DNA of 64,000 bases from an uncultured Bacteroidia bacterium (lineage in GTDB: Bacteria > Bacteroidota > Bacteroidia > Bacteroidales > F082), in the NCBI GenBank assembly GCA_902801625.1, contig CADCJI010000015.1:13315-77314 (forward strand). Reading direction: 5' to 3'. Below the pieces are notes generated by a model, which ran no database searches, had not been told where the DNA came from, and saw only the letters and a program-made list of their open reading frames with translations. The translations under genes were made by a program, and so were the position numbers. The first letter of the stretch is position 1. Each line of letters begins with the position of its first letter. Shown in pieces: positions 2,080 through 41,623 of the stretch.

Positions 2080-2208
2080 GATTCCCTTCGGGAATGGAAT
2101 TTTATCCTTTATTCATTTTTGCGGCGGCTTGTTATGTTTACGGTTCGTAAGCTTTTCATACCGCCGCAGGTTACAAAACAAATCGGCACTCCATTCCCGT
2201 AGGGAATC
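2080..2208. repeat. Family A nested palindromic element, copy 1
   Basis: The left terminus GATTCCCTTCGGGAATGG (2080-2097) is itself a hairpin. Its inverted partner is CCATTCCCGTAGGGAATC (2191-2208). The inner arms are GCGGCGG at 2121 and CCGCCGC at 2161. The loop carries a small TTACG/CGTAA hairpin. The right edge overlaps the stop codon of the M16 peptidase gene (minus strand TAG-ATTCCC). Confidence 0.85.
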
Positions 2209-3443
2209 TATACTCCTTCAAAGATAATCTGGCTCAATTGTTTCTTGTCGAAGACCTGGTTGGCCACTTCAAGGATATCTTCTGCCGTCACGGCCTCCAC
2301 CTTTTGGATAATGTCGTCCATGTATTCGATGGGCTCGCCCATGATGAGCGAGCGGGTGACGCTCAGCAATTCGTTCATGCCGCTCTCATAGCTCAAGGCG
2401 ACTTGTCCGATGAGTTGCTGCTTGGCATGATGCAGTTGCAAAGTGCCCATCTTTTGTGTGCATAATTTATCCAATTCTTTGTGTACTAATTCTATGGCTT
2501 TATCCAATGAGTCGGGGTCGACACCCATGTAGACATTAATGAGACCGACATCGGAATAGGCGGTGTATTGCGACTCGATGCTGTAGGCAAAACCATATTT
2601 CTCGCGGATATTCAAGCCAAGGCGTGAACTCATGGCGGGTCCTCCAAGCACATTATTGAGCATCACGACAGGCATCTTCAGAAGACTGCAAAACTCGGGT
2701 GCGATACCGCCTATAATGCAGTGGCTCAGATGGTTGTTGCGCTTATCGGAACGATTCTCAGGTGTGTAGCCTTTGAAGATTTCGCGCTTCCTATTAATTA
2801 TATGTGCGGGTTGGTCACCGAAATAGGTCATGGCCATTTTCACGAACTCCTTGAAGCTGATGTCGCCGATGCTGGCCAATATCATCTGGTCGGTACTGTA
2901 GTTGTGCGCCATGAAATCGAGGATGTCCTGACGATGAAATCCTTTTACCAATTCCGTGGTACCCAGAATGTTGCGCGCCAATGAATGCCCTTTAAAGACC
3001 ATCTCCTCAAACAAGTCGTAAATCTCATCTGAGGGAGAGTCGAGATAGGAGTTGATTTCGTCCAAGATGACTTCCTTTTCCTTGGCCAGCTCGTTTTCGG
3101 GGAAGGTGGAACGGAAGGCGATGTCGGCGAAAAGGTCAAGACTGCGCTTATAGTGTTGCTTGAGGAAGGTGGCTTGGATGCAGGTCTCTTCCTTGGTGGT
3201 GAAGGCGTTGAGGTCGCCGCCCACATTGTCGAGGCAACTCAGGATGTGATAAGCCTTGCGGTTTTGCGTGCCTTTGAAGATGGTGTGCTCCACGAAGTGG
3301 GCAAGGCCGTTCTCATGGGCCAACTCATCGCGGGTGCCGGTTTCCACCATCAGCACCAAGTGGGCGATTTCGCCTTGTTTTTCCTTATGTATCAGCCGAA
3401 TACCGTTGGGAAGGACGGTTTCGGTGTATTTGTTTTCCTGCAT
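2208..3443 (-). CDS. M16 family zinc peptidase (insulinase/processing-peptidase type)
   Basis: This protein of about 411 residues belongs to peptidase family M16. It has the inverted zinc motif HFVEH near residues 49-53 (zinc-binding His residues and catalytic Glu) and a downstream acidic segment, EKEVILDEINSY, that supplies the third zinc ligand in this family. The length fits single-unit bacterial M16 processing proteases such as the YmxG/PepR type. No signal peptide is evident, so it is probably cytoplasmic. The open frame extends to a GTG at 3446, but the ATG at 3443 is the better start because it lies 18 bases from the -7 box at 3461-3469. It diverges from the subtilisin gene, and its stop codon is part of repeat copy A1. 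Confidence 0.88.
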   Translation of the reverse strand: MQENKYTETVLPNGIRLIHKEKQGEIAHLVLMVETGTRDELAHENGLAHFVEHTIFKGTQNRKAYHILSCLDNVGGDLNAFTTKEETCIQATFLKQHYKRSLDLFADIAFRSTFPENELAKEKEVILDEINSYLDSPSDEIYDLFEEMVFKGHSLARNILGTTELVKGFHRQDILDFMAHNYSTDQMILASIGDISFKEFVKMAMTYFGDQPAHIINRKREIFKGYTPENRSDKRNNHLSHCIIGGIAPEFCSLLKMPVVMLNNVLGGPAMSSRLGLNIREKYGFAYSIESQYTAYSDVGLINVYMGVDPDSLDKAIELVHKELDKLCTQKMGTLQLHHAKQQLIGQVALSYESGMNELLSVTRSLIMGEPIEYMDDIIQKVEAVTAEDILEVANQVFDKKQLSQIIFEGV

Positions 3444-3460
3444 CACTTAAAAATTGGGCT

Positions 3461-3469
3461 GCAAAGATA
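3461..3469 (-). promoter_or_regulatory. -7 box of the M16 peptidase gene
   Basis: TATCTTTGC on the minus strand, 18 bases upstream of the ATG at 3443. It is paired back-to-back with the plus-strand box at 3490. Confidence 0.65.
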
Positions 3470-3489
3470 CGACAATAAGAAAACATTTC

Positions 3490-3498
3490 TAACTTTGC
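3490..3498 (+). promoter_or_regulatory. -7 box of the subtilisin gene
   Basis: TAACTTTGC, 21 bases before the ATG at 3519. With the box at 3461 it forms a compact divergent promoter. Confidence 0.65.
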
Positions 3499-3518
3499 GG
3501 CTTTAAAATCAATTCAAT

Positions 3519-6500
3519 ATGAAAAAACTACTATTCCTATTTTTTGCGATGCTGCTCTGTGTGAGCGGCTTCGCACAAGCTGTCATTGATCCTGTGTTGG
3601 GCGAAGAGATGAATCGCCGCAACGATGCCGAACAAATCAAGGTTATTGTGATTATGAAATCGCAATATGACCGTACACAGTTGAATCGCCGTGCCGATTA
3701 TTTCGTTACCCGAGCCGAGCGCCGAGAGTTTGTGGTCAACGAGCTGAAGGATTTCGCTGCTGCTTCGCAGTATGACCTTCACCGTTCGCTCGCGGAAATG
3801 GAACGCAACGGCTTGGTGACAGAACCCAACGTTTTGTGGATGGCGAATGCCTTGTATTTCGATGCCACAAAAGCGGCCATTCAAGACCTCGCTCGTCGCA
3901 ACGACATTGAAATCATCGGTTTTGCTATGGAGCATAACTGGATTCCTGATGGTGAAGAACCTCAACCAGCTTCTGCTACGCGCGAAATCACTCAAAATAT
4001 CATCAAGGTGGGTGCCGATCAAGTGTGGGAACTGGGCTATACGGGCGAAGGTGTTGTAGTCGCTGTCATCGATACGGGTGTCAACTACAACCATGTCGAC
4101 TTGGCCGACCACCTTTGGGAAGGCGGACCCGACTTCCCAAATCATGGTTACGATGTGTTTAACCACGATAACGACCCCATGGACGACCAAGGCCATGGCT
4201 CGCATTGTGCAGGCACGGTGTGTGGCGATGGCTCGGGCCCTTCTCAAACAGGTATGGCTCCTGATGCTACGCTGATGTGTGTCAAGTGTTTGGGTAGTGA
4301 TGGTAATGGTGGTGCCCAAAGTATCTCCGCTGGCATTCAATGGGCCGTTGAGCATGGCTGCGATATGTTCAGCATGTCTTTAGGGATACCGAATTCGAGT
4401 GTTTCCGAACGCACTTTGTTGCGTAACACCTGTGTGGCCGCATTGGACGCCGGTGTGGTGGCTGCCATTGCAGCCGGCAATGAAGGCGACAGCCAAGGCC
4501 AGTATCCTATTCCGAACAATGTGCGTGTTCCAGGCAGTTGCCCTCCTCCTTATATGGACGATATTCAAGGCGAGAATCCTGGTGATTTGAGTTGCTCGGT
4601 GTGCATAGGCGCCGTTGATTACAATGATGCAGCTGCCTATTTCACCTCGCATGGCCCTGTCACCTGGACGAACACTACCTTTGCTGACTATCCTTACAAC
4701 CCCGGCATTGGACTTATCCGACCTGATGTTTGCGCCCCAGGTGTCAATATCAAATCGATAGATTATTCCACCAATAGTGGCTACACTGACATGAGCGGCA
4801 CTTCGATGGCAACGCCCTGTGCCGCTGGTTGCATGGCCTTGATGCTGAGCAAAGACATCAACCTGATGCCTGCGGATGTGTGCCGTATCCTCGAAGAGAC
4901 GGCTGTTCCGTTGACTTCGGGTAAGAGCAATATCTATGGTTTTGGTCGTATCAATGTTTTGGCCGCTGTCGAAGCCATTCAACTGGGCGCCATCAAGTAT
5001 AACGCCTTCGAAATCAACGACCCCTCTGGAAATAACAACCATAAACTCAATCCAGGTGAATCCGTCACCATGTCTCTTACCCTCGATAATGTGAGCGATG
5101 AAGCCGTGAACAATGTCACTGTCGTTCTCTCTACCGACAATCCGAATGTCACCATCACTGACAACGAAGTCCAGTTCCCGAACTTCGCTGCCAACCAAAC
5201 GCTTACGGTTGAGAATGCCTTTGCTTTCTCGGTCAACGATCAAGTGGTGGCCAAGCAAAAGATAAAATTTAACGCAGAGGTGATGGTCAATGGTGAGCCG
5301 TTGTCACGGTTTAACATTAATGTCATGGTTTATGGCAACTTGCTTCAATTTGGTACTTTTGCAGTGTTGAACGACGACAACAATGATGGTCTTCTCAATC
5401 CTGGCGAGACCGCTGACCTCCGCATCATCATCGACAATACTGGCAACGAGTTGGCACAGATGGTTGTGGGTACCCTTTCTAGTGATTATGACTATATCTC
5501 CATCAATGAAGGAGAAAAAAGTTTCAGCTCGATTGGCGCAAATCTGATGGGCTATGCCGATTTCAGTGTCACCCTCGACGCTGACACTCCAGAAGGTTTT
5601 GTTATCCCACTCAACCTAACTCTTGTGGATGCTAATGGAAGCGTTACAGAGTTGACTTTCGATTATAAGAACTCATGTAATGTCATTTTCAGTTTGCATG
5701 CTTATTTCGGTTTTGGGTGGCATGGCAACTCTTTGAGTGTGAGCTATTCCGATGGCACACCTTCAGAACAAATGGCTATCAACAACGGTTCTTCGGCCAC
5801 CTATACCCGTGAACTGAATTCGGGATCAACCATCACGCTGACCTGGAATAACGGCCAGTGGCCTCAAGATTGCAGTTTCGAAGTGACCTACGACGACGGC
5901 ACGGTCATTTTCCAGAATAGCGGTGGCTTTAGTGGCTCGCGCACCTTCACCATCAATTGTGCAGGTGGTAGCGGCACTGCGGAATTCTGCGCCCCGATTC
6001 GCAACTTGACCTATGATGCGGATGTGAATGCTGTGGTGTTGACTTGGGAAGCACCGCAAAATGGTAATCCATCGGAGTACGAAATCTATCGCGAAACCGA
6101 GTTGCTCGGGACCACTACGGCATTGACTTATACGGATAATTCTGTCGAAGAAGGAGTGTATAATTACTGCGTTTATGCTGTCTATAGCAGCTGCCAAAGC
6201 GAGTTTGTATGCGCTGAAGTGGAGGTGTCGCACTGCGGTTCTTTGCAGAATCTTGATTATACTTTGAACGATGACTTGTTGCTCACTCTTACATGGGAAG
6301 CTCCCGAAGACCCGACAGGACTGGTTGAATATCAGGTTTATTTGGATGGTGAACAACTAGCATCTACCAACGAGTTGACCTACGCTTTCACCATTACTGA
6401 AGGCGAGCATGACATCGCTGTGAATGCGGTCTTCGAAAGTTGTGAGAAGGATGAACATGTGGCGGTTTGTGTTGTGGGTGCTGTGGAGAATCTAAGCTAT

Positions 6501-7685
6501 ACAAAAGAAGGACACAATGTCATCTTGAATTGGGATCCTATGGAAGGGATGAACCAATACGAAGTATACGTCAATGGAGATTTGGCGGCCACAGTCGAGT
6601 CGACGGCCTACGCTTTCGACGTGGAAGCTAGTCTGACCACCGTAATGGTGAAAGCGGTTGCTGAAAACTGCTATGTGCTGGGCGCAAGTGTTGAGATTTG
6701 TTTCGCCGAAGCAGTGACGGGTTTGAAATTTGTTTCCAATGGTGTCAATAATCGCTTCTATTGGCAGTGGAACAATCCGGCAGATGTGGAGCGTTTTAAT
6801 GTGGTATACAATGGTAATGTTTTAGAGCTGCTGCCTTCTCCGAGTGGCTCTACCAGTCTTCTTATGACGGATATGCTTATTGGCGAGAATACGATTTGCG
6901 TCACAGCGCAGTCCGTCTATGGCTGTGATGCCGAAACGGTTTGCCTCTCCCAAAACATCTGTGCCTCCGTCGACAGTTTGGATTATCACTTCAATGGCGA
7001 TTTGGTTACAGTGACATGGTTTGGTGATGCTGATGCCTATGAAGTCGTCGTGGATGGCGCCGAACCTGTAATTGTGGAGACCAATACCTTTATGGACACA
7101 TTAATGGGCAGCCTCACCGTTCAAGTTATGCCTGTCCATGAAGACTGCTTGTCGCTTATTGCCTCCTGCTTTATCGAGAGCGTTTACAACATTGCTCCTG
7201 AAATTCGTATCACCGATGTTCACGATGGCTATATCTCGATGGCTTGGACCGAGGTTGACTATCCTTGGGCCTCAGCCATTGCCTACAACCTCTACCGCGA
7301 TGGCGAGTTGATTGCTGAGAACCTGACGGAAACGAGCTATAGTGACATGGAGATGGCCATCAATGCGCAGCACTGCTATGCTGTTCAGTCGGTGTTTGAG
7401 AAAGGCGTTTCCGACAAGTCGGGTGAGGTTTGCGCCAACTATTTTGCAGGCGTTGGTGAGAACGACAGCAAGGTCAGCATCTTCCCCAACCCAACTTCCG
7501 ACCAGGTGACCATCGAATGTGTCGGAATGAAGCTGATTGAGGTTTATTCCCTTGAGGGTAAGCTGGTGCAACGTATCCAACCGGAGGGTGATACCTATCA
7601 GCTGGTTGGTCTTGAAAGCGGTGTCTACACGCTTCGCATCCGCAAGGGCGATGAGACCTTTGTTCGCCGTGTGGTGAAGATGTAA
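3519..7685 (+). CDS. T9SS-sorted subtilisin-like (S8) serine protease with tandem Fn3-like domains
   Basis: This 1388-residue secreted protease has a signal peptide (residues 1-20, ending GFAQA) and a propeptide of roughly 140 residues. The S8 catalytic triad is visible: Asp185 in VAVIDTGVNYNHVDL, His226 in GHGSHCAGT and Ser429 in SGTSMATPCAAG. After it come two CARDB-like beta-sandwich segments, each with LNPGE(S/T), and from about residue 820 a run of fibronectin III-like repeats. Each repeat begins with a Cys-containing strand (FCAPIRNLTY, HCGSLQNLDY, CVVGAVENLSY, ICFAEAVTGLKF, NICASVDSLDY). The end is a type A sorting domain (SIFPNPTSDQVTIE to VRRVVKM). It is probably displayed on or released from the cell surface; its substrate is unknown. 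It has its own promoter and a downstream terminator. Confidence 0.92.
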   Translation: MKKLLFLFFAMLLCVSGFAQAVIDPVLGEEMNRRNDAEQIKVIVIMKSQYDRTQLNRRADYFVTRAERREFVVNELKDFAAASQYDLHRSLAEMERNGLVTEPNVLWMANALYFDATKAAIQDLARRNDIEIIGFAMEHNWIPDGEEPQPASATREITQNIIKVGADQVWELGYTGEGVVVAVIDTGVNYNHVDLADHLWEGGPDFPNHGYDVFNHDNDPMDDQGHGSHCAGTVCGDGSGPSQTGMAPDATLMCVKCLGSDGNGGAQSISAGIQWAVEHGCDMFSMSLGIPNSSVSERTLLRNTCVAALDAGVVAAIAAGNEGDSQGQYPIPNNVRVPGSCPPPYMDDIQGENPGDLSCSVCIGAVDYNDAAAYFTSHGPVTWTNTTFADYPYNPGIGLIRPDVCAPGVNIKSIDYSTNSGYTDMSGTSMATPCAAGCMALMLSKDINLMPADVCRILEETAVPLTSGKSNIYGFGRINVLAAVEAIQLGAIKYNAFEINDPSGNNNHKLNPGESVTMSLTLDNVSDEAVNNVTVVLSTDNPNVTITDNEVQFPNFAANQTLTVENAFAFSVNDQVVAKQKIKFNAEVMVNGEPLSRFNINVMVYGNLLQFGTFAVLNDDNNDGLLNPGETADLRIIIDNTGNELAQMVVGTLSSDYDYISINEGEKSFSSIGANLMGYADFSVTLDADTPEGFVIPLNLTLVDANGSVTELTFDYKNSCNVIFSLHAYFGFGWHGNSLSVSYSDGTPSEQMAINNGSSATYTRELNSGSTITLTWNNGQWPQDCSFEVTYDDGTVIFQNSGGFSGSRTFTINCAGGSGTAEFCAPIRNLTYDADVNAVVLTWEAPQNGNPSEYEIYRETELLGTTTALTYTDNSVEEGVYNYCVYAVYSSCQSEFVCAEVEVSHCGSLQNLDYTLNDDLLLTLTWEAPEDPTGLVEYQVYLDGEQLASTNELTYAFTITEGEHDIAVNAVFESCEKDEHVAVCVVGAVENLSYTKEGHNVILNWDPMEGMNQYEVYVNGDLAATVESTAYAFDVEASLTTVMVKAVAENCYVLGASVEICFAEAVTGLKFVSNGVNNRFYWQWNNPADVERFNVVYNGNVLELLPSPSGSTSLLMTDMLIGENTICVTAQSVYGCDAETVCLSQNICASVDSLDYHFNGDLVTVTWFGDADAYEVVVDGAEPVIVETNTFMDTLMGSLTVQVMPVHEDCLSLIASCFIESVYNIAPEIRITDVHDGYISMAWTEVDYPWASAIAYNLYRDGELIAENLTETSYSDMEMAINAQHCYAVQSVFEKGVSDKSGEVCANYFAGVGENDSKVSIFPNPTSDQVTIECVGMKLIEVYSLEGKLVQRIQPEGDTYQLVGLESGVYTLRIRKGDETFVRRVVKM

Positions 7686-7708
7686 CGACGTTTTTGGATT
7701 GAAAATCA

Positions 7709-7738
7709 AGGTCGCTTCGCATGAAGTGGCCTTTTTTC
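7709..7738 (+). terminator. Probable intrinsic terminator after the subtilisin gene
   Basis: An imperfect hairpin (AAGGTCGCTTC / GAAGTGGCCTT with GU pairs) is followed by TTTTTTCTTATTTTT. Confidence 0.55.
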
Positions 7739-7739
7739 T

Positions 7740-7748
7740 TATTTTTGC
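7740..7748 (+). promoter_or_regulatory. -7 box for the outer-membrane protein/waaA operon
   Basis: TATTTTTGC, 52 bases before the ATG at 7800. Confidence 0.5.
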
Positions 7749-11074: not shown

Positions 11075-11200
11075 GATTCCCTTCGGGAATGGAGTCACGG
11101 CTTTTGTTTAACATGCGGCGGCATGTAACGCTTACTGACCGTAAACTTTTCATGCCGCCGCGTTTTCAAAACGATTGGCTCGCCATTCCCGAAGGGAATC
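11075..11200. repeat. Family A nested palindromic element, copy 2
   Basis: Termini are GATTCCCTTCGGGAATGG (11075-11092) and its exact reverse complement (11183-11200). Inner arms are GCGGCGG at 11115 and CCGCCGC at 11155. This copy has the longest inner stem, extended to GCGGCGGCATG/CATGCCGCCGC (11 pairs). It sits between convergent pdxA and the first Asp-box paralogue and may terminate both. Confidence 0.88.
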
Positions 11201-13374: not shown

Positions 13375-15378
13375 TTACTTCACCACGAACTTGATGGTCT
13401 TGTTGAAACCATTGGCGCTGATGGTGCAGAAGTAGATGCCGCTCTTGAGGTCGAGGCTGATGGCGTTTTCACCCATCTTCAGGCTCTTGTTGAACTGCTT
13501 CACAGTCTGGCCAACGAGGTTGACGATGCTGATGTTAGCCTCGACATCCTGAGATGACTTCACGACCACATAGTCAGTGGCGGGGTTAGGATAAAGGCCA
13601 TAGACCACATCCTTGGCATCTGTGTTCTCTTCAACATCCCAATATTCCATACTGGGATTGACTTTGACGGCATGGTAAGTGTTTTCAGAAGCATTGCCTT
13701 GGTTCGGGCTGTCACCCCAATACAGACCAATTTGGTCATCGCTCTGGAAACCAAACCAGAATTCGCCAGGAGTATAGGTGTAGGGCACAGAAACCGTGAA
13801 GACGTTGTCAGAGTAGAGGAACATGAAGTTGAGTTCTTCATCGGTGAGGTCGTCAACGAGTTGATCCCAGTAACCTTTGTCAACATTGCGATAGCTCACA
13901 TAAATACTTCTGTAGTAGTATCTGCCATTGTCGTCAAGACGTCTGACGCAAGGGGAAGAGAAGGCGCAGGCAAGGTTACCGTAGGGGTCACAGCTAAGAG
14001 CTGGATGGCCTGAGGCGCTATAGAATCTGGAATAATAATCGGACTCGTGATAGAATTTGTCGTTATCCCATTCGTAGCCTTCGTACATTGGGATGTAACC
14101 AATCCATCTTGTTGAGTCGGGCACCATGTGGACATATCCGGGCTCGTCAACAATAGGCCACCAGAGACGTGCGGCATGGAACGGGTTGGGGTTGGCAAAG
14201 TGCTCTTCGAGAGGAGTGCCTACATATTCTGGGTGATAGGTGTCTTGGATGGGGGCTTCCTGGGTGTCGTTCCAATAGAGGATACCGTCAACGGTACGGC
14301 CTGACCAATAAGTGTAGTAACCAGGTTCATTATCCAAGGTATGAGTCATTTCTAAGGTGCTGAATGCAACGTGAGCAACATTGTTGTTGTCGAGGGTGAT
14401 GGCACCGTTCATGGGAATAAACAGTGTGTCGCCATAGTCAAAGACTTCGTCGAGGGATCTGCCTTCGAAGGGGTGTTCCCAAATTTTTGTGGTCTCCCAG
14501 GTCAGACCATCGTCAGTCGACTTGAACATCCAAGCGCTGTTGGTGAGGTTGCCTGAATAAAGGAGGGCGACAGTATGACCATTGGCAGCCATGCAGTAGT
14601 CGTCGGCAGAGAAAACATCCACTTCATAGCCAAGTTCGGCGAGAGGGCTATAGCTGATGGTCCAGTTTTCAGCGTCTTCTGAACGCCACATGACGGTGTG
14701 GGAGTGGATCTCATCGCTACTTACTTGGTGCTGTAGTGTGCCAACGGCAACGATGATGTCGTGGTTTTCACCGCAGGTGACCACTCTTGGCCAGGTGGGG
14801 TATTCGTTGTAAGGATATCCTTCGGGATAATCCGGAAGGGGACCCATGTATCTCCATTCTCCTTCGCCAGCGATGTCTCTTACGAAGCATTGCATGTGGC
14901 TATTGCCGTGGCAAAGCATGATTTCGCCGTCTTTCCATGGGGCGATGGAAGGCCAACCTGTTCTAAACTCTTCGAGGCGGGATTCAGGCTGATCGCCCCA
15001 TTCACCGCCTTTGTAGAAGTTGTAACCTGTACCACGGTCAGCAGCTGATTGGTTGAATTCGTGTGACATTGTGGCGGCAATAGCAACCGAACCGTCAGGC
15101 AACTGGTACATACGGTTACTGCAGTAGTGGTTGGATTGGAGGTCGTAGGTGGTCGTCATGATTTCCCCGTCTTCAATCTCATTGAGTCTATTGATGACGA
15201 CACTTTTAGCGGTCTGGGGAGCGAAATTTGTCGCTGTAGCGTTGACGTTTTCTTTACCCACTGCAACTTTCTTGGCGCTTGCCGTGGCTTGACGGATGTC
15301 ATTCTTGGCAACACGCTGTTGTGCAAAAGCACTGAAGCCTAATGCGAGGCTTAAAGATAGTAAAAGTACTCTTCTCAT
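13375..15378 (-). CDS. T9SS-sorted Asp-box (BNR-like) secreted protein, paralogue 2
   Basis: This 667-residue paralogue has the signal peptide MRRVLLLSLSLALGFSAFAQ, the Asp-box KSTDDGLTW, the degenerate RSEDAENW and a type A sorting domain. That domain appears identical to that of paralogue 1 over about 70 residues (YPNPATDYVVVKSS to IKFVVK), and its DNA is nearly identical too. The central region has diverged clearly more. This pattern, with fixed export signals and a variable middle, suggests gene duplication with continuing conversion at the ends. It has its own -7 box and its own terminator, so it is probably a separate transcription unit. Confidence 0.85.
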   Translation of the reverse strand: MRRVLLLSLSLALGFSAFAQQRVAKNDIRQATASAKKVAVGKENVNATATNFAPQTAKSVVINRLNEIEDGEIMTTTYDLQSNHYCSNRMYQLPDGSVAIAATMSHEFNQSAADRGTGYNFYKGGEWGDQPESRLEEFRTGWPSIAPWKDGEIMLCHGNSHMQCFVRDIAGEGEWRYMGPLPDYPEGYPYNEYPTWPRVVTCGENHDIIVAVGTLQHQVSSDEIHSHTVMWRSEDAENWTISYSPLAELGYEVDVFSADDYCMAANGHTVALLYSGNLTNSAWMFKSTDDGLTWETTKIWEHPFEGRSLDEVFDYGDTLFIPMNGAITLDNNNVAHVAFSTLEMTHTLDNEPGYYTYWSGRTVDGILYWNDTQEAPIQDTYHPEYVGTPLEEHFANPNPFHAARLWWPIVDEPGYVHMVPDSTRWIGYIPMYEGYEWDNDKFYHESDYYSRFYSASGHPALSCDPYGNLACAFSSPCVRRLDDNGRYYYRSIYVSYRNVDKGYWDQLVDDLTDEELNFMFLYSDNVFTVSVPYTYTPGEFWFGFQSDDQIGLYWGDSPNQGNASENTYHAVKVNPSMEYWDVEENTDAKDVVYGLYPNPATDYVVVKSSQDVEANISIVNLVGQTVKQFNKSLKMGENAISLDLKSGIYFCTISANGFNKTIKFVVK

Positions 15379-15553: not shown

Positions 15554-17557
15554 TTACTTCACCACGAACTTGATGGTCTTGTTGAAACCATTGGCGCTGA
15601 TGGTGCAGAAGTAGATGCCGCTCTTGAGGTCGATGCCGATGGCGTTTTCACCCATCTTCAGGCTCTTGTTGAACTGCTTAACAGTTTGGCCAACGAGGTT
15701 GACGATGCTGATATTAGCTTCAACATCCTGAGATGACTTCACAACCACATAGTCAGTAGCGGGGTTGGGATAGATGCTGTAAACCACATCCTGGGCTTCA
15801 TAGTTTTCAGGAACGCTCACCATTTCGGGTTCGGGAGTGACCTTGAAGACGTGGATGGTGTTCTCAGAGGCAGTGGGTTGAGTGGCATTGGAGCCCCAAT
15901 ACAGACCAATTTGGTCATCGCTTTGGAAACCAAACCAGAATTCACCGGGATTGAAAACATTGTCAGCAGCAATGGTGAAGATGTTTTCCGAATACAGGAA
16001 CATAAAGTTGATAGCCTCGTCGGAGAGTTCATCGGCAACTTGGTACCAATAGCCCTCATCTACATTATAGTAGCTGACATAAACGCTTCTGTAGTAGTAA
16101 GTTCCATTGTCGTCAAGACGAGCGCAGCAAGGTGCTGTGTAGGCGCAAGCAATGTTGCCATAGGGGTCGATAGAAAGGGCGGGCATGCCAGATTGGCCAC
16201 TGCGGAACTTGTAGAAATAGTCATTTTCAATGTAGAACTTATCGTTGTCCCATTCAACGCCTTCGTACAGCGGCACATAGCCAATCCACTTGGTGGAGTC
16301 AGCTTCCATGTGGACATAACCTGGGTCGTCTGCGATAGGCCACCAAAGCCTCAGAGCGTGGTGTGGGTTGGCATGGGCAAAGTGCTCTTCCAAAGGAGTG
16401 CCGATATATTCAGGGTGATCAGTGTCAGCGATGGGGCCGTCGGTGTCTTTCCAGTGGTAAACGCCGTCGACACCACGACCTCTAAAGGTGGTGTAGGTGT
16501 TGCCGATTTCTTCGTGGATGTACTCGTAGGCGGTCAGGGCAACATGAGCAGTGCCGCTGTTGTCAATAGCAATGGCAAGGTTGGCGGGGCCAAACACGGT
16601 GTCGGTCATGACGGATTGGGGATCGTTTTCCCAATCGAAGCCGGCATACGGGTTTTCCCAAACCACGTATCTGGTCCAAGTCAGACCATCGTCGGTGGAT
16701 TTGTACATAACGACATCGGCTTGAAGGTCATCACCGTAAACCATGGCAACATTGTGGCCGTTGGCAGCGATGTTGTAGGCGTCAGCTGAATAGTTCATCT
16801 CTTCGCCGTCTTGGACGAGGGGTGAATAGGTGCAGGTCCAGTTCTCGGCATCTTCCGAACGGAGATACACTTGGTAGTGCTCGACAACGTCGGAACTGAC
16901 TGAATGTTGGATGTCGCCAATCACGTGGATGATGTTGTGGTTGTCTCCCGAAGTGGCAACTCTCGGCCATGAAGCATCCTCAGTGTAAGGAAATTCTGCA
17001 GGGTGAATCGGGAGTTCGCCTCTGTATTCCCATTCGCCTTCACCGGCAACTTCTCTGGTCCAGCAACGCATTGGAGCGTGTGAAATGAGGATTTCACCTT
17101 TTTCGCCCCATTGAGCGATGGTAGGCCAACCTGTTCTCATGCTTTCAACACGGGCTTCAGGTTGATCCATCCATTCGCCTGTTTCAGCATTGTAGAAGTT
17201 GTAACCCGTACCACGGTCACTGGCCGTTTGGTTGGCCTCGTGTGAGAAGGTGGCAGTCACACCAACTGAACCGTTAGGCAGTTGGTACATACGGTTCGAG
17301 CACCAGCTGTTGGACTGGAGGTCGTAGGTGGTAGTCATGGTCTCGCCGTCTTCAGCGTCTTGGTATCTGTTGACGACGACACTCTTAGCGGTCTGAGGAG
17401 CGAAATTGGTTGCAGGGTTGATTTTTTCATTACCCACAGCAGCAACTTTCTTAGCGCTCATTTTGGACGAACGGATGTCGTTCTTTGCGACACGCTGTTG
17501 TGCAAAAGCACTGAAGCCTAAAGCAAGGCTCAATGAAAGTAGTAATACTTTTCTCAT
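15554..17557 (-). CDS. T9SS-sorted Asp-box (BNR-like) secreted protein, paralogue 3
   Basis: This 667-residue third copy has the signal peptide MRKVLLLSLSLALGFSAFAQ, KSTDDGLTW and RSEDAENW Asp-box-like motifs, and the shared blocks RGTGYNFYNAETGEW and TPLEEHFAHANPHHALRLWWP. Its sorting domain differs from the other two by only a few residues (GIDLKSG rather than SLDLKSG). It is the most divergent of the three in the middle. The N-terminal half agrees better with paralogue 1 (MRTGWPTIAQWGEKGEIL, MRCWTREVAGEGEWEY) than with paralogue 2, which hints at recombination among the copies. Confidence 0.85.
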   Translation of the reverse strand: MRKVLLLSLSLALGFSAFAQQRVAKNDIRSSKMSAKKVAAVGNEKINPATNFAPQTAKSVVVNRYQDAEDGETMTTTYDLQSNSWCSNRMYQLPNGSVGVTATFSHEANQTASDRGTGYNFYNAETGEWMDQPEARVESMRTGWPTIAQWGEKGEILISHAPMRCWTREVAGEGEWEYRGELPIHPAEFPYTEDASWPRVATSGDNHNIIHVIGDIQHSVSSDVVEHYQVYLRSEDAENWTCTYSPLVQDGEEMNYSADAYNIAANGHNVAMVYGDDLQADVVMYKSTDDGLTWTRYVVWENPYAGFDWENDPQSVMTDTVFGPANLAIAIDNSGTAHVALTAYEYIHEEIGNTYTTFRGRGVDGVYHWKDTDGPIADTDHPEYIGTPLEEHFAHANPHHALRLWWPIADDPGYVHMEADSTKWIGYVPLYEGVEWDNDKFYIENDYFYKFRSGQSGMPALSIDPYGNIACAYTAPCCARLDDNGTYYYRSVYVSYYNVDEGYWYQVADELSDEAINFMFLYSENIFTIAADNVFNPGEFWFGFQSDDQIGLYWGSNATQPTASENTIHVFKVTPEPEMVSVPENYEAQDVVYSIYPNPATDYVVVKSSQDVEANISIVNLVGQTVKQFNKSLKMGENAIGIDLKSGIYFCTISANGFNKTIKFVVK

Positions 17558-20737: not shown

Positions 20738-20863
20738 GATTCCCTTCGGGAATGGAGTTTATGTCAAGTGTTTCAAGCGGCGGTAAAGACAATTGCTTGC
20801 TTTATTACAGGTTCTACCGCCGCTGGGAACTAAAAGATATAGTCCATTCCCCGCAGGGGAATC
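20738..20863. repeat. Family A nested palindromic element, copy 3
   Basis: Termini are GATTCCCTTCGGGAATGG (20738) and CCATTCCCCGCAGGGGAATC (20844-20863). Inner arms are at 20777 and 20817. The eighth inner pair is T-A here but C-G in copies 2, 5 and 6, a compensatory change. The element starts three bases after the GH92 stop codon. Confidence 0.85.
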
Positions 20864-35268: not shown

Positions 35269-35273
35269 CTGGG

Positions 35274-35399
35274 GATTCCCCTTCGGGAATGGAGGGGAGT
35301 CTATTAGTTTATGGCGGCGGTTGTAAATGTTGTGTTTGGGTAAGTGGTTTTCGCCGCCGCAGTTTAAAAAGAAAAAACTCTATTCCCCGAAGGGGAAAC
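35274..35399. repeat. Family A nested palindromic element, copy 4
   Basis: Termini are GATTCCCCTTCGGGAATGG (35274-35292) and TATTCCCCGAAGGGGAAAC (35381-35399), the latter with an extra C-G stem pair. Inner arms are at 35314 and 35354. The core loop is divergent from the other copies but keeps the same length. Confidence 0.82.
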
Positions 35400-35428: not shown

Positions 35429-37081
35429 ATGAAGAGAATATCATTTGTCGCTTTAATCACAACCCTGTGCCTCTCATGGAGCCTCGTCGCCCAAGAGAAA
35501 CAGAACAACTTCGAAATCGCCAAGAGCCTCGACATCTATAACAGCCTCCTGCGCGAGCTCAACCTCAATTATGTCGATGAAATCAACCCAGGCGAACTCA
35601 ATGAGGCTGCCATCAAAGCCATGCTCGATGGTCTTGACCCATATACGGTCTTCATCCCAGAGTCTGACATCGAGAACGCCAAGTTCATGACCACGGGCGA
35701 GTACGGTGGCATCGGCGCTGTCATCCAATATGACGGAGAGTTCACGAGAATCTCCGAACCTTACTATGGCTGGCCGGCACAGAAAGCAGGCCTCATTGCG
35801 GGCGACGTCATCTTAGAGGTGAACGGCGTAGACTGCGAGAAAAAGAACACCCAAGAGGTCAGCGACCTGCTGAAGGGACAGCCTGGCACTGAGGTGACAC
35901 TGAAACTTAAGCGTTATGGTCAAGATAAGCCGTTGGAAATCAAACTAAAGCGCGAGAAGGTAAAAATCGACAACATACCTTATTATAAAGTGTTCGATAA
36001 CGGTGTAGCCTATCTCTCACTGAGTGGTTTTACCCGCGATGCGGCCAGAGAGTTGAAGGAGAAGTTCATGGAAATGCGCAAAGACCGCGAGTTGAAAGGT
36101 TTCATCCTCGACCTGCGCGGCAATGGTGGCGGTCTGATGAATGAAGCTGTCGACATCGTTAACTTGTTCATCCCCAAAGGCAAAGCCGTCGTTTCGATGA
36201 AGGGTAAGGCTGCCAATGCCAACAGCATGCACCCCACTACCAACGATCCTGTTGACCTTGAGATCCCCTTGGCTATCCTTGTCGATGGCAACAGCGCCTC
36301 GGCAAGTGAAATTGTGGCAGGTGCTATCCAGGATTATGACCGTGGTGTCATCATCGGTCAAAGGACATTCGGTAAAGGATTGGTGCAGAATATCTTGCCT
36401 CTGAGCTACAATACGCAGATGAAAGTCACGGTGGCGCATTATTACATCCCGAGTGGGCGCTGCATTCAGGAAATCGACTATTCGCACAAGAAAGACACCA
36501 CCCAAATGAAGAAAGACACCCTTGGCAAAGCTTTCAAGACCATGGGCGGTCGCACAGTCTATGAAGGTCACGGCATTATGCCCGATGTGAAAGTCGACCG
36601 CGACCCCTATGCTACTGTGACAGCCTATCTCTATGCCAAGAACTACATCTTCGACTATGCCAATAAGTACTACAGCGAGCACAAGAGCATCGATTCTGCC
36701 GACCGTTTCCAAATCGATGAAGCAACTTATCAGGATTTCATGAAGTTCGTGAAAGACAAGAAGTTCAGCTATACCACAGAGAGTGAGAAAGCTATTGCGA
36801 AGTTGAAGAAGACTGCAAAGGATGAGGGGTATCTCGACAAGATTCAGCCTCAGATTGACCTTTTGGAGAAGAACCTCGCCGCCGAGAAAGACAAAGACCT
36901 ACTTAGCAACCGCAAGGACATTGAGGAGTTGCTGCGTTCTGAGATTGTGGGGCGTTACTATTATCAAAAGGGTCGTATCGTCACTTCGTTGAACGACGAC
37001 CCCGACTTGAAACGTGCTTTTGAAATCCTGCTCAACACCAACGGCAAAGACGAATACCACACCATCCTGAGTGGCAAGTGA
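35429..37081 (+). CDS. S41 family C-terminal processing peptidase (CtpA/Prc-like)
   Basis: This 550-residue exported protease has a signal peptide (residues 1-21, ending SLVAQ), a PDZ domain (YGGIGAVIQYDGEFTRISEP to EVNGVDC) and a C-terminal S41 domain. The catalytic Ser is in DGNSASASEIVAGAIQDY, and the general-base Lys is in GQRTFGKGLVQ. The substrate-guiding segment FILDLRGNGGGLMNEAV is intact. It is expected in the periplasm, trimming C-termini of envelope proteins. The stop codon overlaps the next ATG by one base, so it is coupled to the O-antigen ligase-like gene. Confidence 0.92.
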   Translation: MKRISFVALITTLCLSWSLVAQEKQNNFEIAKSLDIYNSLLRELNLNYVDEINPGELNEAAIKAMLDGLDPYTVFIPESDIENAKFMTTGEYGGIGAVIQYDGEFTRISEPYYGWPAQKAGLIAGDVILEVNGVDCEKKNTQEVSDLLKGQPGTEVTLKLKRYGQDKPLEIKLKREKVKIDNIPYYKVFDNGVAYLSLSGFTRDAARELKEKFMEMRKDRELKGFILDLRGNGGGLMNEAVDIVNLFIPKGKAVVSMKGKAANANSMHPTTNDPVDLEIPLAILVDGNSASASEIVAGAIQDYDRGVIIGQRTFGKGLVQNILPLSYNTQMKVTVAHYYIPSGRCIQEIDYSHKKDTTQMKKDTLGKAFKTMGGRTVYEGHGIMPDVKVDRDPYATVTAYLYAKNYIFDYANKYYSEHKSIDSADRFQIDEATYQDFMKFVKDKKFSYTTESEKAIAKLKKTAKDEGYLDKIQPQIDLLEKNLAAEKDKDLLSNRKDIEELLRSEIVGRYYYQKGRIVTSLNDDPDLKRAFEILLNTNGKDEYHTILSGK

Positions 37082-38796
37082 TGACCTCGAAGGCTTCCAT
37101 ACGACCCTATCTGAATCAAGCCTACTTGTTGGGTTTGCTGATGGTGGCGGTGGGACTCACGCTGTCGCCCTTCTTGATGGGCATGTCGCAGTTTTGGCTT
37201 GTCATCGTCTGGTTCGTTGATGCCCTTACTCCCCCTTTTAAGGGGGGCGGGGGGATAAAAACAAAACTTTCCCGCTTCTTCCACAACAAAGCCGCCGTCC
37301 TCCTGGTTGCTTTCTACCTCATGCATGTTGTTGGTCTGCTCTGGACTTCTGATTTCCAGTATGCCCTGAAAGACCTCCGCGTAAAGCTGCCCATTTTGGT
37401 GATGCCTTTTGTGCTGTCGAGCATGGAACCCCTTGACCGCAAGCGTTTCAACATAGTAATGCTCATCTATGTGCTTTCGGTGTTTATCGCCACGCAGTTC
37501 AGTTTCATCCGTTACATGCAGCATAACTATGAGGATATCCGCGAGATTTCCCATTTCATCAGCCACATACGCTTTTGTCTCAACATTGTCTTCTGCATCG
37601 CCATTATTGGGAGGTACCTTTATAATAGGGGCGTTTCGATTCCTTCGACAAGCTCAGGGACCGCAGGCTCAACGACCCTTGGCAAGCAGGCCCCTGAGCT
37701 TGTCGAAGGGCCGTCTCAAATAAAATATCCAGTTCCAGCCTTTGGTGTTAAAAGAGCCATTGACCGTTTCTTGCAATGGTTCCTTCTGCTATGGTTCATC
37801 TATCAAATCTACATCTTTGAATCCTTGTCAGGCTATGTCATACTGGCAGCTGTTGTCATCGCTTCAGCTGTTTATGCTTTCCTGCAATGGAAAAGGGGTA
37901 GGGGATGGCGCATTGCCATTGGGCTCTTTGCTGTCGGTGCAATAGCGGCTCTTGTGGTAGTAGTGATGTCTGTCGTCAAACCTTTGATAGAGGTGAAACC
38001 TGTGGATTTCAGCACTTTGGAGAAGAAAACCGCTCAAGGCAATTATTATTGGCACGATACGATTTGCTTTCCTGTAGAGGATGGCAAGTATGTGGGGCTG
38101 TATTTTAATCGTAACGAATTGCGTGAGGCATGGTCTATGCGCAGCAACATGCCTTTGGAAGGTACAACGGCAAGTGGCGAAAACCTTGAGACAACCTTGG
38201 CGCGTTATCTTACCTCCAAAGACCTTCGCAAGGATGCCGAAGGCGTGATGGCTTTGACCGATGAGGACATCCGAAATATAGAGCAAGGTGTAGCCAACTA
38301 CAACAACTGGAAACATCCTGGAATTCATGCTCGCCTTTCTTCGACGCTGTTCGAGTATAACCTTTATCGTCGTTTCAACAACCCCAACGGTGGGTCTTTG
38401 GCGCAGCGCATTGAGTTTACAAGAGCCTCGTTCCATATCATCAAACAGTATCCTTGGTTCGGCGTGGGTACGGGTGATGTGCCTCAGGCTTTTGCCCAGA
38501 CCTATGACGAGATTCATTCTCCGTTGAAAGAGGAATTCCGCTTCCGTGCTCACAATCAGTATCTTGCCATCGCCGTGGCTTTCGGTCTTGTGGGCTTGGT
38601 GTTTTTCGTGTTCGTCTTGCTCTATCCTTGGTTTGCGTCGAAACGAAATCATACCTATTTGTATATGGTATTTCTCACCATCATGTTGCTTTCGATGTTT
38701 CCCGAGGACACTTTGGAGACCCAAGCAGGCGCCACCTTGTTTGCCTTTTTTGTGTCTTTGCTGCTGTTTGCCAGCCCTGTTTCACGTCAAGAATAG
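37081..38796 (+). CDS. O-antigen ligase/polymerase-like membrane protein
   Basis: This protein of 571 residues starts at the ATG overlapping the previous stop codon (TGATG); the frame is open one codon further to a GTG. It has about 10 hydrophobic segments and a Wzy_C-type periplasmic loop with ASFHIIKQYPWFGVGTGDVP and AHNQYLAIAVAFGLVGLVFF, matching WaaL/Wzy ligases that transfer or polymerise O-antigen on undecaprenyl carriers. A family B repeat encodes roughly residues 185-212 (IPSTSSGTAGSTT to PELVEGPSQ) in a loop between membrane segments. The stop codon TAG is the first part of repeat A5. Confidence 0.8.
   Translation: MTSKASIRPYLNQAYLLGLLMVAVGLTLSPFLMGMSQFWLVIVWFVDALTPPFKGGGGIKTKLSRFFHNKAAVLLVAFYLMHVVGLLWTSDFQYALKDLRVKLPILVMPFVLSSMEPLDRKRFNIVMLIYVLSVFIATQFSFIRYMQHNYEDIREISHFISHIRFCLNIVFCIAIIGRYLYNRGVSIPSTSSGTAGSTTLGKQAPELVEGPSQIKYPVPAFGVKRAIDRFLQWFLLLWFIYQIYIFESLSGYVILAAVVIASAVYAFLQWKRGRGWRIAIGLFAVGAIAALVVVVMSVVKPLIEVKPVDFSTLEKKTAQGNYYWHDTICFPVEDGKYVGLYFNRNELREAWSMRSNMPLEGTTASGENLETTLARYLTSKDLRKDAEGVMALTDEDIRNIEQGVANYNNWKHPGIHARLSSTLFEYNLYRRFNNPNGGSLAQRIEFTRASFHIIKQYPWFGVGTGDVPQAFAQTYDEIHSPLKEEFRFRAHNQYLAIAVAFGLVGLVFFVFVLLYPWFASKRNHTYLYMVFLTIMLLSMFPEDTLETQAGATLFAFFVSLLLFASPVSRQE
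37640..37713 (+). repeat. Family B repeat inside the O-antigen ligase-like gene
   Basis: The inverted unit CCTTCGACAAGCTCAGGGAC (from 37642) and a direct unit CCCCTGAGCTTGTCGAAGGG (37691-37710) form a large inverted repeat. It is translated in frame. Confidence 0.78.
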
Positions 38797-38917
38797 ATTC
38801 CCTTTGGGAATGGCGTAATTAATTCTGTGTTTTGCGGCGGCAGGATAAACTTACGCATTGTAAACGAAATAAGCCGCCGCTAGTTAAATTTGTGATATTC
38901 CATTCCCGAAGGGAATC
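38796..38917. repeat. Family A nested palindromic element, copy 5
   Basis: GATTCCCTTTGGGAATGG (38796-38813) begins on the last base of the upstream TAG stop codon. The partner is CCATTCCCGAAGGGAATC (38900-38917). Inner arms are at 38834 and 38874. Confidence 0.87.
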
Positions 38918-38993
38918 CCTTTCGAACAACTATCCTTCTATGAGAGATTAGTGTTAGATTTGCTTTGAGATTCAATAATTCAAAAGTTTTCTT

Positions 38994-39002
38994 TATCTTT
39001 GC
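38994..39002 (+). promoter_or_regulatory. -7 box of cdd
   Basis: TATCTTTGC, 20 bases before the ATG at 39022. It lies downstream of the apparent longer open frame start at 38965, which supports the ATG at 39022. Confidence 0.7.
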
Positions 39003-39021
39003 GGCAACAATACCAACAATC

Positions 39022-39504
39022 ATGAGGAAAGAACAATTTGTCTGCCCCTATGAGGTATATGACACAATGGAAGAGCTGCCGCAGCAGGATGCCGAGTTGA
39101 TGCGTCGTGCCCACGAGGCGGCTCGCAATGCATACGCACCTTATTCCAAGTTCAATGTGGGTGCCGCCTTACGATTGGCCAACGGAGCTATCGTGTTGGG
39201 CAACAATGTCGAAAATGCAGCCTATCCAAGCGGTCTCTGCGCCGAGAGGGTGGCGATGTTTGCTGCTATGGCACAATATCCAGGCGTTCCTTTTGAGGCA
39301 TTGGCGGTGACGGCGTGGTCGGCTTCCAAGAGCATCGAGGAACCTGTCGCTCCTTGCGGGGCTTGTCGCCAGGTGATGGTAGAGGTGGAGCAGGTGTCGA
39401 AACAGCCACTGCGCGTGCTTTGCCAAGGCGACACAGGACCCATCATGGTCTTCGACGGCGTTGAGTCGCTGATGCCGTTCATCTTCTTGGACAAGTTCCT
39501 TTAA
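39022..39504 (+). CDS. cdd: Cytidine deaminase
   Basis: This enzyme deaminates cytidine/deoxycytidine to uridine in pyrimidine salvage. The protein has 160 residues from the ATG at 39022; the frame extends 19 codons upstream, but the promoter lies within that extension. Zinc-site motifs are present: CAERVAMF (Cys ligand and proton-shuttling Glu) and PCGACRQVM (two Cys ligands). The substrate segment is YAPYSKFNVGAAL. It is slightly longer than the classic tetrameric form because of a C-terminal LMPFIFLDKFL tail. The convergent neighbour's stop codon overlaps its last bases (39501-39504). Confidence 0.93.
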   Translation: MRKEQFVCPYEVYDTMEELPQQDAELMRRAHEAARNAYAPYSKFNVGAALRLANGAIVLGNNVENAAYPSGLCAERVAMFAAMAQYPGVPFEALAVTAWSASKSIEEPVAPCGACRQVMVEVEQVSKQPLRVLCQGDTGPIMVFDGVESLMPFIFLDKFL

Positions 39505-40397
39505 TCGTTTTCTGTAGGAGGAACTATGGGAGCAGCCTCGACGGGTCGCTTGGGCTGAGCCTTTTTCCAACTCCATACGATGAGTCCAATCGTAATCATC
39601 GCGCTCACCGCGATAATCAGTACATTTTGCGTTTCCCCAAAACTCTCTGCGTCTTCAAGCATCCCTATGTTGTCTAGGTAATAGAGGAGAACGGTCGCAC
39701 CATTGTTGACAAAGTGCATCAACATACTGGTCCATAGCGAGTTGGTGATGTAGAACATATAACCTAACAACATTCCGAGAAACATTCTGGGCAAGAACCC
39801 GTAGAACTGGAAATGGATAAAGGAGAAGATGGCCGCCGAAAGGATGATGGCGACATGCGGGTTCATCTTTCGCGTCAGCGACTGCTGCAATACGCCTCTG
39901 AATGTCAGTTCTTCACCCACGGCAGGTATCAATGCAATGATGACCAAGTTGAACAGCATTCCGCCAAAGGTGGTGACATTCAGCATTTTTTCGGTAGCGG
40001 CTTGTGCCGTCTCTTCCAAGGCTTTCATATACTCCTCAAGCTTGGCAAAAGCGCCCCCAAGGTTCATGCTTTCGTTCCAAGTGGTCAGGCTGGTGGTGAC
40101 GGGTATGGAAACGAACATTACGGCCACACCTATTAATATAAGCCACCACGGCGGCGTGAGTTTGCGGAGACCCAAGTCGTGCATTTGGTGCTCTTTGCGT
40201 GTGATGAAATAATACACGATGGGCGGCACAACGAACATGAAAATGGAACTAATGCCTTGACCGATTTTCATTCCCGTGTCGCCGGCAAAAATGAATATGG
40301 CTGATGCCGCGACTCCTATCAGACCGCTAATCAATAAGATAACTAAAAAAAGGAGGATTCTTATCATTCCCGAAGATTGTTTCAAGTTGTCTTTCAT
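39501..40397 (-). CDS. CPBP family intramembrane metalloprotease
   Basis: The protein has 298 residues from the ATG at 40397. The open frame runs to 40532 through the promoter and a family B repeat, which is not credible as coding. The three CPBP (CAAX protease/bacteriocin-processing) motifs are seen: GEELTFRGVLQQSL with the paired Glu and Arg, FIHFQFYGFLPRMFLGMLLGY with the motif 2 His, and SMLMHFVNNG with the final His/Asn. There are about eight hydrophobic segments. The C-terminal tail is proline-rich and cytoplasmic. The substrate is unknown. It overlaps the end of cdd by four bases, tail to tail. Confidence 0.88.
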   Translation of the reverse strand: MKDNLKQSSGMIRILLFLVILLISGLIGVAASAIFIFAGDTGMKIGQGISSIFMFVVPPIVYYFITRKEHQMHDLGLRKLTPPWWLILIGVAVMFVSIPVTTSLTTWNESMNLGGAFAKLEEYMKALEETAQAATEKMLNVTTFGGMLFNLVIIALIPAVGEELTFRGVLQQSLTRKMNPHVAIILSAAIFSFIHFQFYGFLPRMFLGMLLGYMFYITNSLWTSMLMHFVNNGATVLLYYLDNIGMLEDAESFGETQNVLIIAVSAMITIGLIVWSWKKAQPKRPVEAAPIVPPTEND

Positions 40398-40414
40398 AAG
40401 CAGTTTATTTTGCT

Positions 40415-40423
40415 GCAAAGATA
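40415..40423 (-). promoter_or_regulatory. -7 box of the CPBP protease gene
   Basis: TATCTTTGC on the minus strand, 18 bases before the ATG at 40397. Confidence 0.65.
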
Positions 40424-40432
40424 CACTTTTTG

Positions 40433-40441
40433 TAATTTTGC
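40433..40441 (+). promoter_or_regulatory. -7 box of dusB
   Basis: TAATTTTGC, separated from the dusB ATG by a family B repeat. The transcript leader would therefore contain the repeat. Confidence 0.55.
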
Positions 40442-40454
40442 AACGAAAAAGCAA

Positions 40455-40505
40455 AGGTCCCTGAGCCTGCGGTCCCTGAGGCCAATCGAAGGGCCGACGG
40501 GCCGA
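40455..40505 (+). repeat. Family B repeat in the dusB leader
   Basis: GGTCCCTGAG units and GGCCAATCGAAGGGCCGACG in the same rearranged order as the second waaA copy (9564). It sits between the -7 box and the start codon of dusB. Confidence 0.75.
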
Positions 40506-40524
40506 TTTAATAAGAAATACCTCA

Positions 40525-41499
40525 ATGTACAAACTCGCCCACCTCGAATTCGATCATTATCCCTTACTCCTCGCGCCCATGGAAGATGTGTCGGATCCTC
40601 CGTTCCGCTATGTCTGCAAGATGTTTGGCGCCGATGTGGTTTACTCGGAGTTCATCTCCGCCGATGGTCTCATCCGCGATTCGGTGAAGAGCATTAAGAA
40701 GCTGGATTTTGAGGAGTTTGAGCGTCCCGTAGGCATTCAAATCTTCGGCAATGCCGTCGAGCCGATGGTGGAGGCAGCGCGTTATGCCGAGACCGCCCAT
40801 CCCGACATTATTGACATCAATTTTGGTTGTCCGGTGAAGAAAGTGGCCTCGAAAGGTGCAGGTTCCGGTATCATGAACGATATTCCCAAGATGGTGGCCA
40901 TCACTAAGGCCGTGGTGGAGGCGGTGAACACTCCTGTGACGGTGAAGACCCGCCTAGGCTACGACAACGAACACCGAGAAATTGTAGACATTGCCGAACG
41001 CCTGCAAGATGTTGGCATCGCCGCATTGACCATCCACGGGCGCTTGCGTACTACCAAATATAGCGAGCCCGCCGACTGGACCCTCATCGGAGCGGTGAAG
41101 AACAATCCCCGCATGCACATACCCATCATCGGCAATGGCGATGTGGTGGACGGGCCTTCAGCCAAGCATTTCAAGGATACCTACGGCGTGGACGGATTGA
41201 TGATTGGTCGCGCTACTTACGGCAATCCATGGATTTTCAGCCAGGTTCGACATTATTTGGAGACAGGAGAGGAATTGTCTTTGCCCGATGTGGCAGAACG
41301 CGTAAGGGTGAGTAAAATTCATTTGCAGCGTTCCATCGAGTGGAAGGGCGAACACATTGCTTTATTGGAAATCCGCAAGCATTGGGCTGCCTATTTTAAA
41401 GGTTTACCGAATTTCAAGCCGTTCAAAATGCGGTTAATGGAGACGCTGTCGGTGGAGGAGGTTTTGGAGATATTGAACGAGATTGAAAACTGTTATTAG
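40525..41499 (+). CDS. dusB: tRNA-dihydrouridine synthase
   Basis: This FMN-dependent enzyme reduces uridines in the tRNA D-loop. The 324-residue protein has LLAPMEDVSDPPFRYVCKMF (FMN-binding start of the TIM barrel), INFGCPVKKVASKGAGSGI (catalytic Cys), TIHGRLRTTKYSEPADW and MIGRATYGNPWIF. The Dus paralogue (A/B/C) is assigned as DusB-type by these motifs and by general similarity to the single Dus of many bacteria. The stop codon TAG leads directly into repeat A6. Confidence 0.9.
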   Translation: MYKLAHLEFDHYPLLLAPMEDVSDPPFRYVCKMFGADVVYSEFISADGLIRDSVKSIKKLDFEEFERPVGIQIFGNAVEPMVEAARYAETAHPDIIDINFGCPVKKVASKGAGSGIMNDIPKMVAITKAVVEAVNTPVTVKTRLGYDNEHREIVDIAERLQDVGIAALTIHGRLRTTKYSEPADWTLIGAVKNNPRMHIPIIGNGDVVDGPSAKHFKDTYGVDGLMIGRATYGNPWIFSQVRHYLETGEELSLPDVAERVRVSKIHLQRSIEWKGEHIALLEIRKHWAAYFKGLPNFKPFKMRLMETLSVEEVLEILNEIENCY

Positions 41500-41623
41500 T
41501 TTCCCTGCGGGAATGGAGTTATTCAATTAATTAACATGCGGCGGCTTGTAAAGTCTACGATTCGTAAACATTACCTGCCGCCGCAGTATACTAAAAACGG
41601 ATTCGCCATTCCCGCAGGGAATC
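41499..41623. repeat. Family A nested palindromic element, copy 6
   Basis: GTTTCCCTGCGGGAATGG (41499) begins on the last base of the dusB stop codon, and CCATTCCCGCAGGGAATC (41606-41623) abuts the TGA of the convergent HAD gene. The element fills the whole intergenic space. Inner arms are at 41538 and 41578. Confidence 0.88.

Follow-up and report, generated by a model that had tools for sequence, protein, structure and literature searches.

The question raised by this stretch of DNA, 64,000 nucleotides from an uncultured Bacteroidia bacterium of the gut (assembly GCA_902801625.1, contig CADCJI010000015.1, positions 13,315 to 77,314; hereafter the window, meaning the whole stretch that was analysed), is what the six copies of a nested palindrome found in it are, and what could have spread them. 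Each is an element of about 125 bp, here called type 1, in which two inverted hairpins resembling repetitive extragenic palindromic (REP) sequences flank a 47-nt imperfect palindrome, in the order hairpin GATTCCC-loop-GGGAATGGAGT, spacer, core GCGGCGG-N33-CCGCCGC, spacer and inverted hairpin. We consider it probable that these copies form the non-autonomous part of a mobile system with two components, the other being the gene for a 119-amino acid (aa) putative nuclease of the GIY-YIG type, and we infer that this enzyme moves or flips the element. The gene is bracketed by the element, the two co-occur, and the type of repeat tracks the clade of the enzyme.

The 119-aa protein is encoded by a small open reading frame (ORF) in a relative, at the site that corresponds to the sixth copy of the window (genome G077; G, C and L are our own handles for genomes, contigs and loci, and the window belongs to G000). 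It matches PF01541 with 46.3 bits against a cut-off of 22.6, has no match in NCBIfam and has no relative by sequence in PDB at E 0.01. Four GIY-YIG matches are found in the genome of the window. One, inside the window, lies within a 609-aa frame that by its size and domain is probably UvrC-like, and each of the three other genes is bracketed by a palindromic repeat:

G000:C9:94742-95095, outside the window: type-1 GIY-YIG gene, bracketed by the type-1 element
G000:C5:168392-168610 (L217): GIY-YIG gene, bracketed by the 26-nt perfect inverted repeat AGGTCCCTGAGCCTGTCGAAGGGCCG
C18: GIY-YIG gene, bracketed by CATTGCGAGG-type repeats

A search of the whole genus gave 16 type-1 hits in 13 genomes, at 71-100% identity, and the next full-length hits were at 53%; the line at 71% was set after this gap was visible, and a partial hit in G112 was excluded. 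The element adjoins all 16 genes. Full elements stand on both sides of 15 of them; the exception is G111, where one flank carries a full element and the opposite flank a lone terminal hairpin. For 12 of the 16, GGGAATGG of the following element begins 10-15 bp past the stop codon, and the corresponding gaps in G066 and G092 are 51 and 100 bp. By our reading the genes occupy about ten gene contexts. Arrays of the element with a period of 150-162 bp lie beside the GIY-YIG gene at two loci (L223 in G047 and L227 in G101).

The exact element pattern occurs in 36 of 99 genomes of the genus, with a maximum of 72 hits on one strand, and the reversed pattern, used as a control, had 0 hits in the 99 genomes. 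The figure of 36 rests on one exact pattern, and a few single hits may be due to chance (one of them, in G003, is coding). The type-1 gene is present in 13 of the 36 and in none of the 63 others (p 3.7e-7), and the genomes that have it also have more copies of the element (p 4.5e-5, taking for each genome whichever of its forward and reverse counts was higher).

Repeat and enzyme appear to diversify together, since every clade of GIY-YIG genes goes with a repeat family of its own. Sister GIY-YIG proteins (about 50% identity), from genomes without the type-1 element, are encoded at five loci bracketed by a sister element, which has the same layout and another sequence, with TGTC-ATTCCGAG hairpins and the core arms GCGCGGC/GCCGCGC. 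Its exact pattern was found in 15 of the 99 genomes, none of them shared with the 36. Second-tier GIY hits, at 44-53% identity, come from 15 genomes, 12 of which have the sister element (p 2e-10); this set includes genes bracketed by other REPs, and the genomes were picked by hand from the hit list. On a tree of 35 GIY proteins the repeat type changes six times, the minimum for seven labels, compared with a mean of 17.4 when the labels are shuffled (0 of 200 as low). The labels come from our own patterns, some of them one-sided, with L247 labelled 'other' by hand, and some branches have weak support: a split between the sister-element group and the rest appears in 49% of the bootstrap trees.

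A small GIY-YIG protein of the window's genome was also searched in 50 genomes outside Bacteroidales, with 20 hits in 13 genomes; these 50, out of 66 first tried, were reached via chance pattern matches and are not a random sample. Matched flanking repeats within 300 bp were found at 16/16 type-1 loci, at both other loci of the window's genome, at 10/17 other loci of the genus and at 13/20 loci of the other phyla. Ordinary genes had such flanks at 2/272 loci in the other phyla and at 3/36, 7/53 and 4/118 loci in Bacteroidales, and shifted positions had them at 1/223.

At one element-bearing site the gene is found in opposite orientations in different species, and between relatives the element is present or absent at a given site, with its interior reversed in some places. 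The two convergent genes around copy 6 recur in many relatives, and what lies between them varies: the element by itself in seven other genomes, the GIY-YIG gene with elements in four (G089, G077, G047 and G111), and in others palindromes of another kind, another small ORF or next to nothing. In G089 and G077 the GIY-YIG ORF lies between two direct copies, 96% alike, which also look like the local orthologue. In G111 the gene is oriented opposite to that in G077 and G089, which points to separate insertions. The other small ORF found at this site, starting MRNFRNYDVW, lies between GGCCTATGACTATGGC-type palindromes (L192, L207 and L212, in G066, G055 and G080), and its product looks by eye as if it could be akin to the four-helix-bundle proteins of rRNA intervening sequences.

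All six copies were found where the earlier note on this DNA had placed them, with the hairpin termini that it described and with GCGGCGG-N33-CCGCCGC exact in 6/6, and the terminal motif is found 13 times in the window, far more than by chance (1.2 on average over 100 shuffles). The copies, with the terminal hairpins of the last one as an example, are:

2080..2208: copy 1, core 2121-2167; decayed orthologue in G021
11075..11200: copy 2, core 11115-11161; convergent genes on either side, and the same site in G021 is without element
20738..20863: copy 3, core 20777-20823; G021 has it in the same orientation, G059 probably in the inverted one
35274..35399: copy 4, core 35314-35360; present in G016, absent in G021
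38796..38917: copy 5, core 38834-38880; in G101 its interior is reversed in place
41499..41623: copy 6, core 41538-41584; between the convergent genes 40525-41499 (+) and 41624-42271 (-)
41499..41516 (+): left terminal REP-like hairpin
41606..41623 (-): right terminal REP-like hairpin, inverted

In all, G021 has copies 3 and 5 and the decayed copy 1, and lacks copies 2, 4 and 6. At the sites of copies 4-6, which were examined in two further relatives, G016 has copies 4 and 5 and lacks copy 6, and G101 has copy 5 (inverted) and copy 6, with copy 4 seen on one flank only. Among the loci read, orthologous sites could be compared for 159 elements in 64 pairs, at 20 sites by our own count, and in nine pairs, at four of the sites, the interior is reverse-complemented and the flanks are not. 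The identity is 92% inverted against 60% direct for copy 5 in G101, 94% against 64% for the C1:337588 site in G021, and 96% against 68% for the C8:121598 site in G059; copy 3 in G059 is a weaker, probable case (76% against 66%). At the C8:121598 site the terminal hairpins are unmoved between G000 and G059, and are reversed together with the interior between G003 and G059. The outermost bases of copy 5 remain with the flanks, and these data do not pin down the exchange points.

We hypothesize that the putative GIY-YIG nuclease would recognise and cut the element either at its terminal hairpins or at its palindromic core. Repair after the cut could then spread the element, or the gene and the element as one unit, and could also exchange cores between copies and sometimes rejoin the interior reversed, and a gene lost between two direct copies would leave a solo element behind. 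Such a system would operate much like a REPtron, that is, REPs with a dedicated enzyme, in which a GIY-YIG nuclease would replace the HUH/Y1 transposase RAYT.

Several observations weigh against this explanation. Template switching at inverted repeats, no less than nuclease cutting and rejoining, could produce the inversions. The type-1 gene is missing from 23 of the 36 element-bearing genomes, many of which are incomplete, and some of these have 17-31 copies. The element-free genome G112 holds the partial hit (63% over 56 aa). Among the 16 type-1 genes, two have a damaged 3' end: the stop is lost in G089 C15, and G078 has a broken frame. Matched flanks are absent from 7/20 GIY loci in the other phyla and from 7/17 other loci in the genus. 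Among the orthologous sites there was no clean empty one, those without element holding other sequence or being almost closed, from which the exact ends of the element and its target could have been read. The 119-aa protein is called a nuclease because of its domain, and its activity is to be understood as a prediction. Finally, Y1 transposase genes, which occur in 70/99 genomes of the genus, also co-occur with the element (34/36 against 36/63, p 3.8e-5); from this it follows that shared ancestry confounds co-occurrence at the level of genomes, and it is the adjacency data that carry the argument.

The GIY-YIG gene could instead be a homing parasite that lands in palindromes spread by other means. 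We think this unlikely, although the several species with the element alone at the copy-6 site, the many element-bearing genomes without the gene, and the likeness of the gene-flanking copies in G077 and G089 to each other and to the local orthologue would all suit a parasite. It agrees poorly with the separate repeat family of each GIY-YIG clade and the joint diversification of repeat and enzyme, or with the higher number of elements where the gene is present, and no other element-bracketed gene was found, Y1 genes being the only ones tested for bracketing. Free-standing GIY-YIG homing endonuclease genes do share the GIY-YIG domain, as identified by Pfam, and the insertion at a repeat-bearing site, but here the target is a dispersed repeat that is duplicated on both sides and not one conserved gene, and the cutting is putative. 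The earlier note had seen in the copies a REP/REPIN-like dispersed palindrome, which holds well: the element is multi-copy and intergenic, it has an inverted pair of hairpins, and at one and the same site some relatives have it and others lack it. The note had also thought of a RAYT as the mover. That the copies are REPINs moved by a RAYT/Y1 (HUH) transposase is now very improbable in spite of the REPIN-like layout and of the wide occurrence of Y1 genes in the genus, together with the element, since neither element nor hairpin lies within 600 bp of any of 20 Y1 loci from element-bearing relatives (L335-L354), and around the five Y1_Tnp matches of the window's own genome the hairpin was matched only with three substitutions. 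As many as 16 of the 20 loci have matched flanking repeats of another kind, unrelated to the element, so that matched flanks mark mobile genes generally, and the GIY-YIG genes behave alike.

A structural RNA, or a terminator or other mRNA-end element, kept by selection and non-mobile, is equally hard to believe in. It would fit the intergenic position of the 15 copies that were classified, which often touch stop codons, and the terminal stems that are lengthened by matched pairs in some relatives. On the other hand, 63 of the 99 congeners manage without the element, its sites differ between close relatives, interiors flip, covariation in the core is weak or lacking, and the nuclease gene would be left unexplained. 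In the window the sole Rfam match at the gathering threshold is a tRNA, and the element has no match. The element may have a side role as a terminator.

The two-part system of element and GIY-YIG gene has a possible bearing on repeats far outside this genus. According to Di Nocera et al. 2013 (PMC3733652), CGTC REPs are short palindromes of five phyla, apparently without a dedicated transposase; they are intergenic and mainly head-to-head dimers, with the tag CGTC (often TGTC or CCTC), a stem of 8-9 bp starting with A-T and a tail fitting CCA. The type-1 element shares with the REPs so described the short intergenic palindrome, the A-T start of the stem and the head-to-head dimer, and the TGTC tag of the sister element, as well as the repeats around several GIY-YIG genes, fit by eye. 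It differs in having a CTCC tag, a CTC tail and a 47-nt palindromic core between the REPs, and as it fails on both tag and tail we do not file it as a CGTC REP. The other difference is the enzyme: the paper reports none that is dedicated to the repeats (PMC3733652), and here a GIY-YIG gene is bracketed. In five of the 13 other-phyla loci with matched flanks it is CGTC-tag repeats that bracket the GIY gene (in Sphingobium nicotianae, Bradyrhizobium sp. Leo170, a Caulobacteraceae metagenome-assembled genome (MAG), a Massilia MAG and Brevundimonas sp. MYb52), the repeat-finding run on the other-phyla loci covering 11 of the 20. We put forward tentatively, giving it slightly less than an even chance, that the dedicated enzymes so far missing for CGTC-type REPs are, across phyla, small GIY-YIG nucleases, which would make these a second REP-mobilising chemistry unrelated to RAYTs, in which each clade would cut its own palindrome and could spread, swap or flip it, the nested element being an elaborated form.

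REPINs and REPtrons with RAYT (TnpA-REP) are similar in their many inverted REP pairs, in the low-copy enzyme gene flanked by cognate repeats and in the joint diversification of the two. The present system differs in having GIY-YIG in place of HUH/Y1, no GTAG tag, a nested core palindrome and inversion in place. ERIC/IRU and other MITE-like elements are short intergenic imperfect palindromes of about 125 bp, like the type-1 element, but differ in sequence, and the bracketed nuclease gene is a feature of the present one. We recognised no literature that links GIY-YIG genes with REPs, in a search that subscription papers and preprints mostly lay beyond, which is no proof of novelty. A bracketed and co-diversifying gene with a DNA-cutting domain makes the question of the CGTC REP enzyme directly testable, with the flipping in place as a simple genetic read-out, and it may explain what short GIY-YIG proteins with no known function do.

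The anatomy of the element can be described further from 167 distinct elements, which are those of the loci read in this analysis. The spacer between terminal hairpin and core has a median of 21 nt. The tag is CTCC in 228 of 334 ends and TTCC in 52, the common tail is CTC, and the tags of both hairpins point inward, head-to-head, in every element read; GTAG was not found at the inner hairpin end in any of the 167. The terminal stem begins ATTCCC/GGGAAT and is usually 6-7 bp in the window and longer in relatives, where some stems are extended by matched pairs. The earlier note had taken the 33 nt between the inner arms for an invariant loop. That length does hold for the six copies of the window, but the wider set rejects the invariance (N is 33 in 120 elements, 34 in 35, 32 in nine, 35 in two and 31 in one), and the supposed loop is itself an imperfect palindrome, which makes the core a 47-nt hairpin of up to 21 pairs around 5 nt. 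The tetranucleotide said to precede the hairpins, usually ending AG, consists at least partly of the stop codons of abutting genes, for instance TAG|ATTCCC and TGA|GATTCCC. No target-site duplication was noticed by eye in the flanks of the copies, where no systematic count was made.

The same note read covariation of the inner stem as a sign of selection on the fold, and at its pair 8 the bases are as it described in copies 2-6, with C-A in copy 1. In 24 copies, 75.8% of the cells in the core are paired, compared with 72.6 +- 1.3% when shuffled (6/500 as high) and 29-52% once the partners are slid. Of the shuffles, 16/500 reach the observed covariation score, and pairs changed on both sides show no excess (281/500 as many). 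When the cores were thinned to less than 80% identity, 43 remained, with a Watson-Crick pairing of 0.485 within elements and 0.448 between them (16/1000 shuffles as high), and with G-T pairs counted these had no excess (528/1000). Strong covariation, for which support was gone after the thinning, was thus dropped. What stands is a slight Watson-Crick excess, and the core is best seen as a conserved palindrome for which the evidence of compensatory change is weak.

The genome of the window (3.58 Mb, 84% complete) contains 25 N33 copies by exact match, and more with N32 and N34. Classification took 15 of the 16 copies given to it, L001 being left out as the script did not recognise it, and all are intergenic, six between convergent, seven between tandem and two between divergent genes, with stop codons often touched. 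The element was found in 0/16 genomes from other families of the order, and two loci outside Bacteroidales (L085 and L140) passed a loose end check. The named records with full elements are Bacteroidales or Bacteroidia MAGs, e.g. RUG (presumably for rumen), Horse_feces, Goat, Yak and Water_buffalos_Abomasum. In G047:C39 (L176, 2530-3520) four copies stand in tandem with a period of about 278 bp, with near-identical flanks and differing core arms, as if cores had been exchanged. Arrays like those of integron attC sites were considered for such tandem arrays and rejected, the tandem repeats being interspersed with REP-like repeats of other kinds; an integrase was not searched for. Elsewhere in the window, two ORFs of equal length, 667 aa, lie in tandem on the minus strand (13375-15378 and 15554-17557), and they too are flanked by matched repeats, with scores of 32 and 26.

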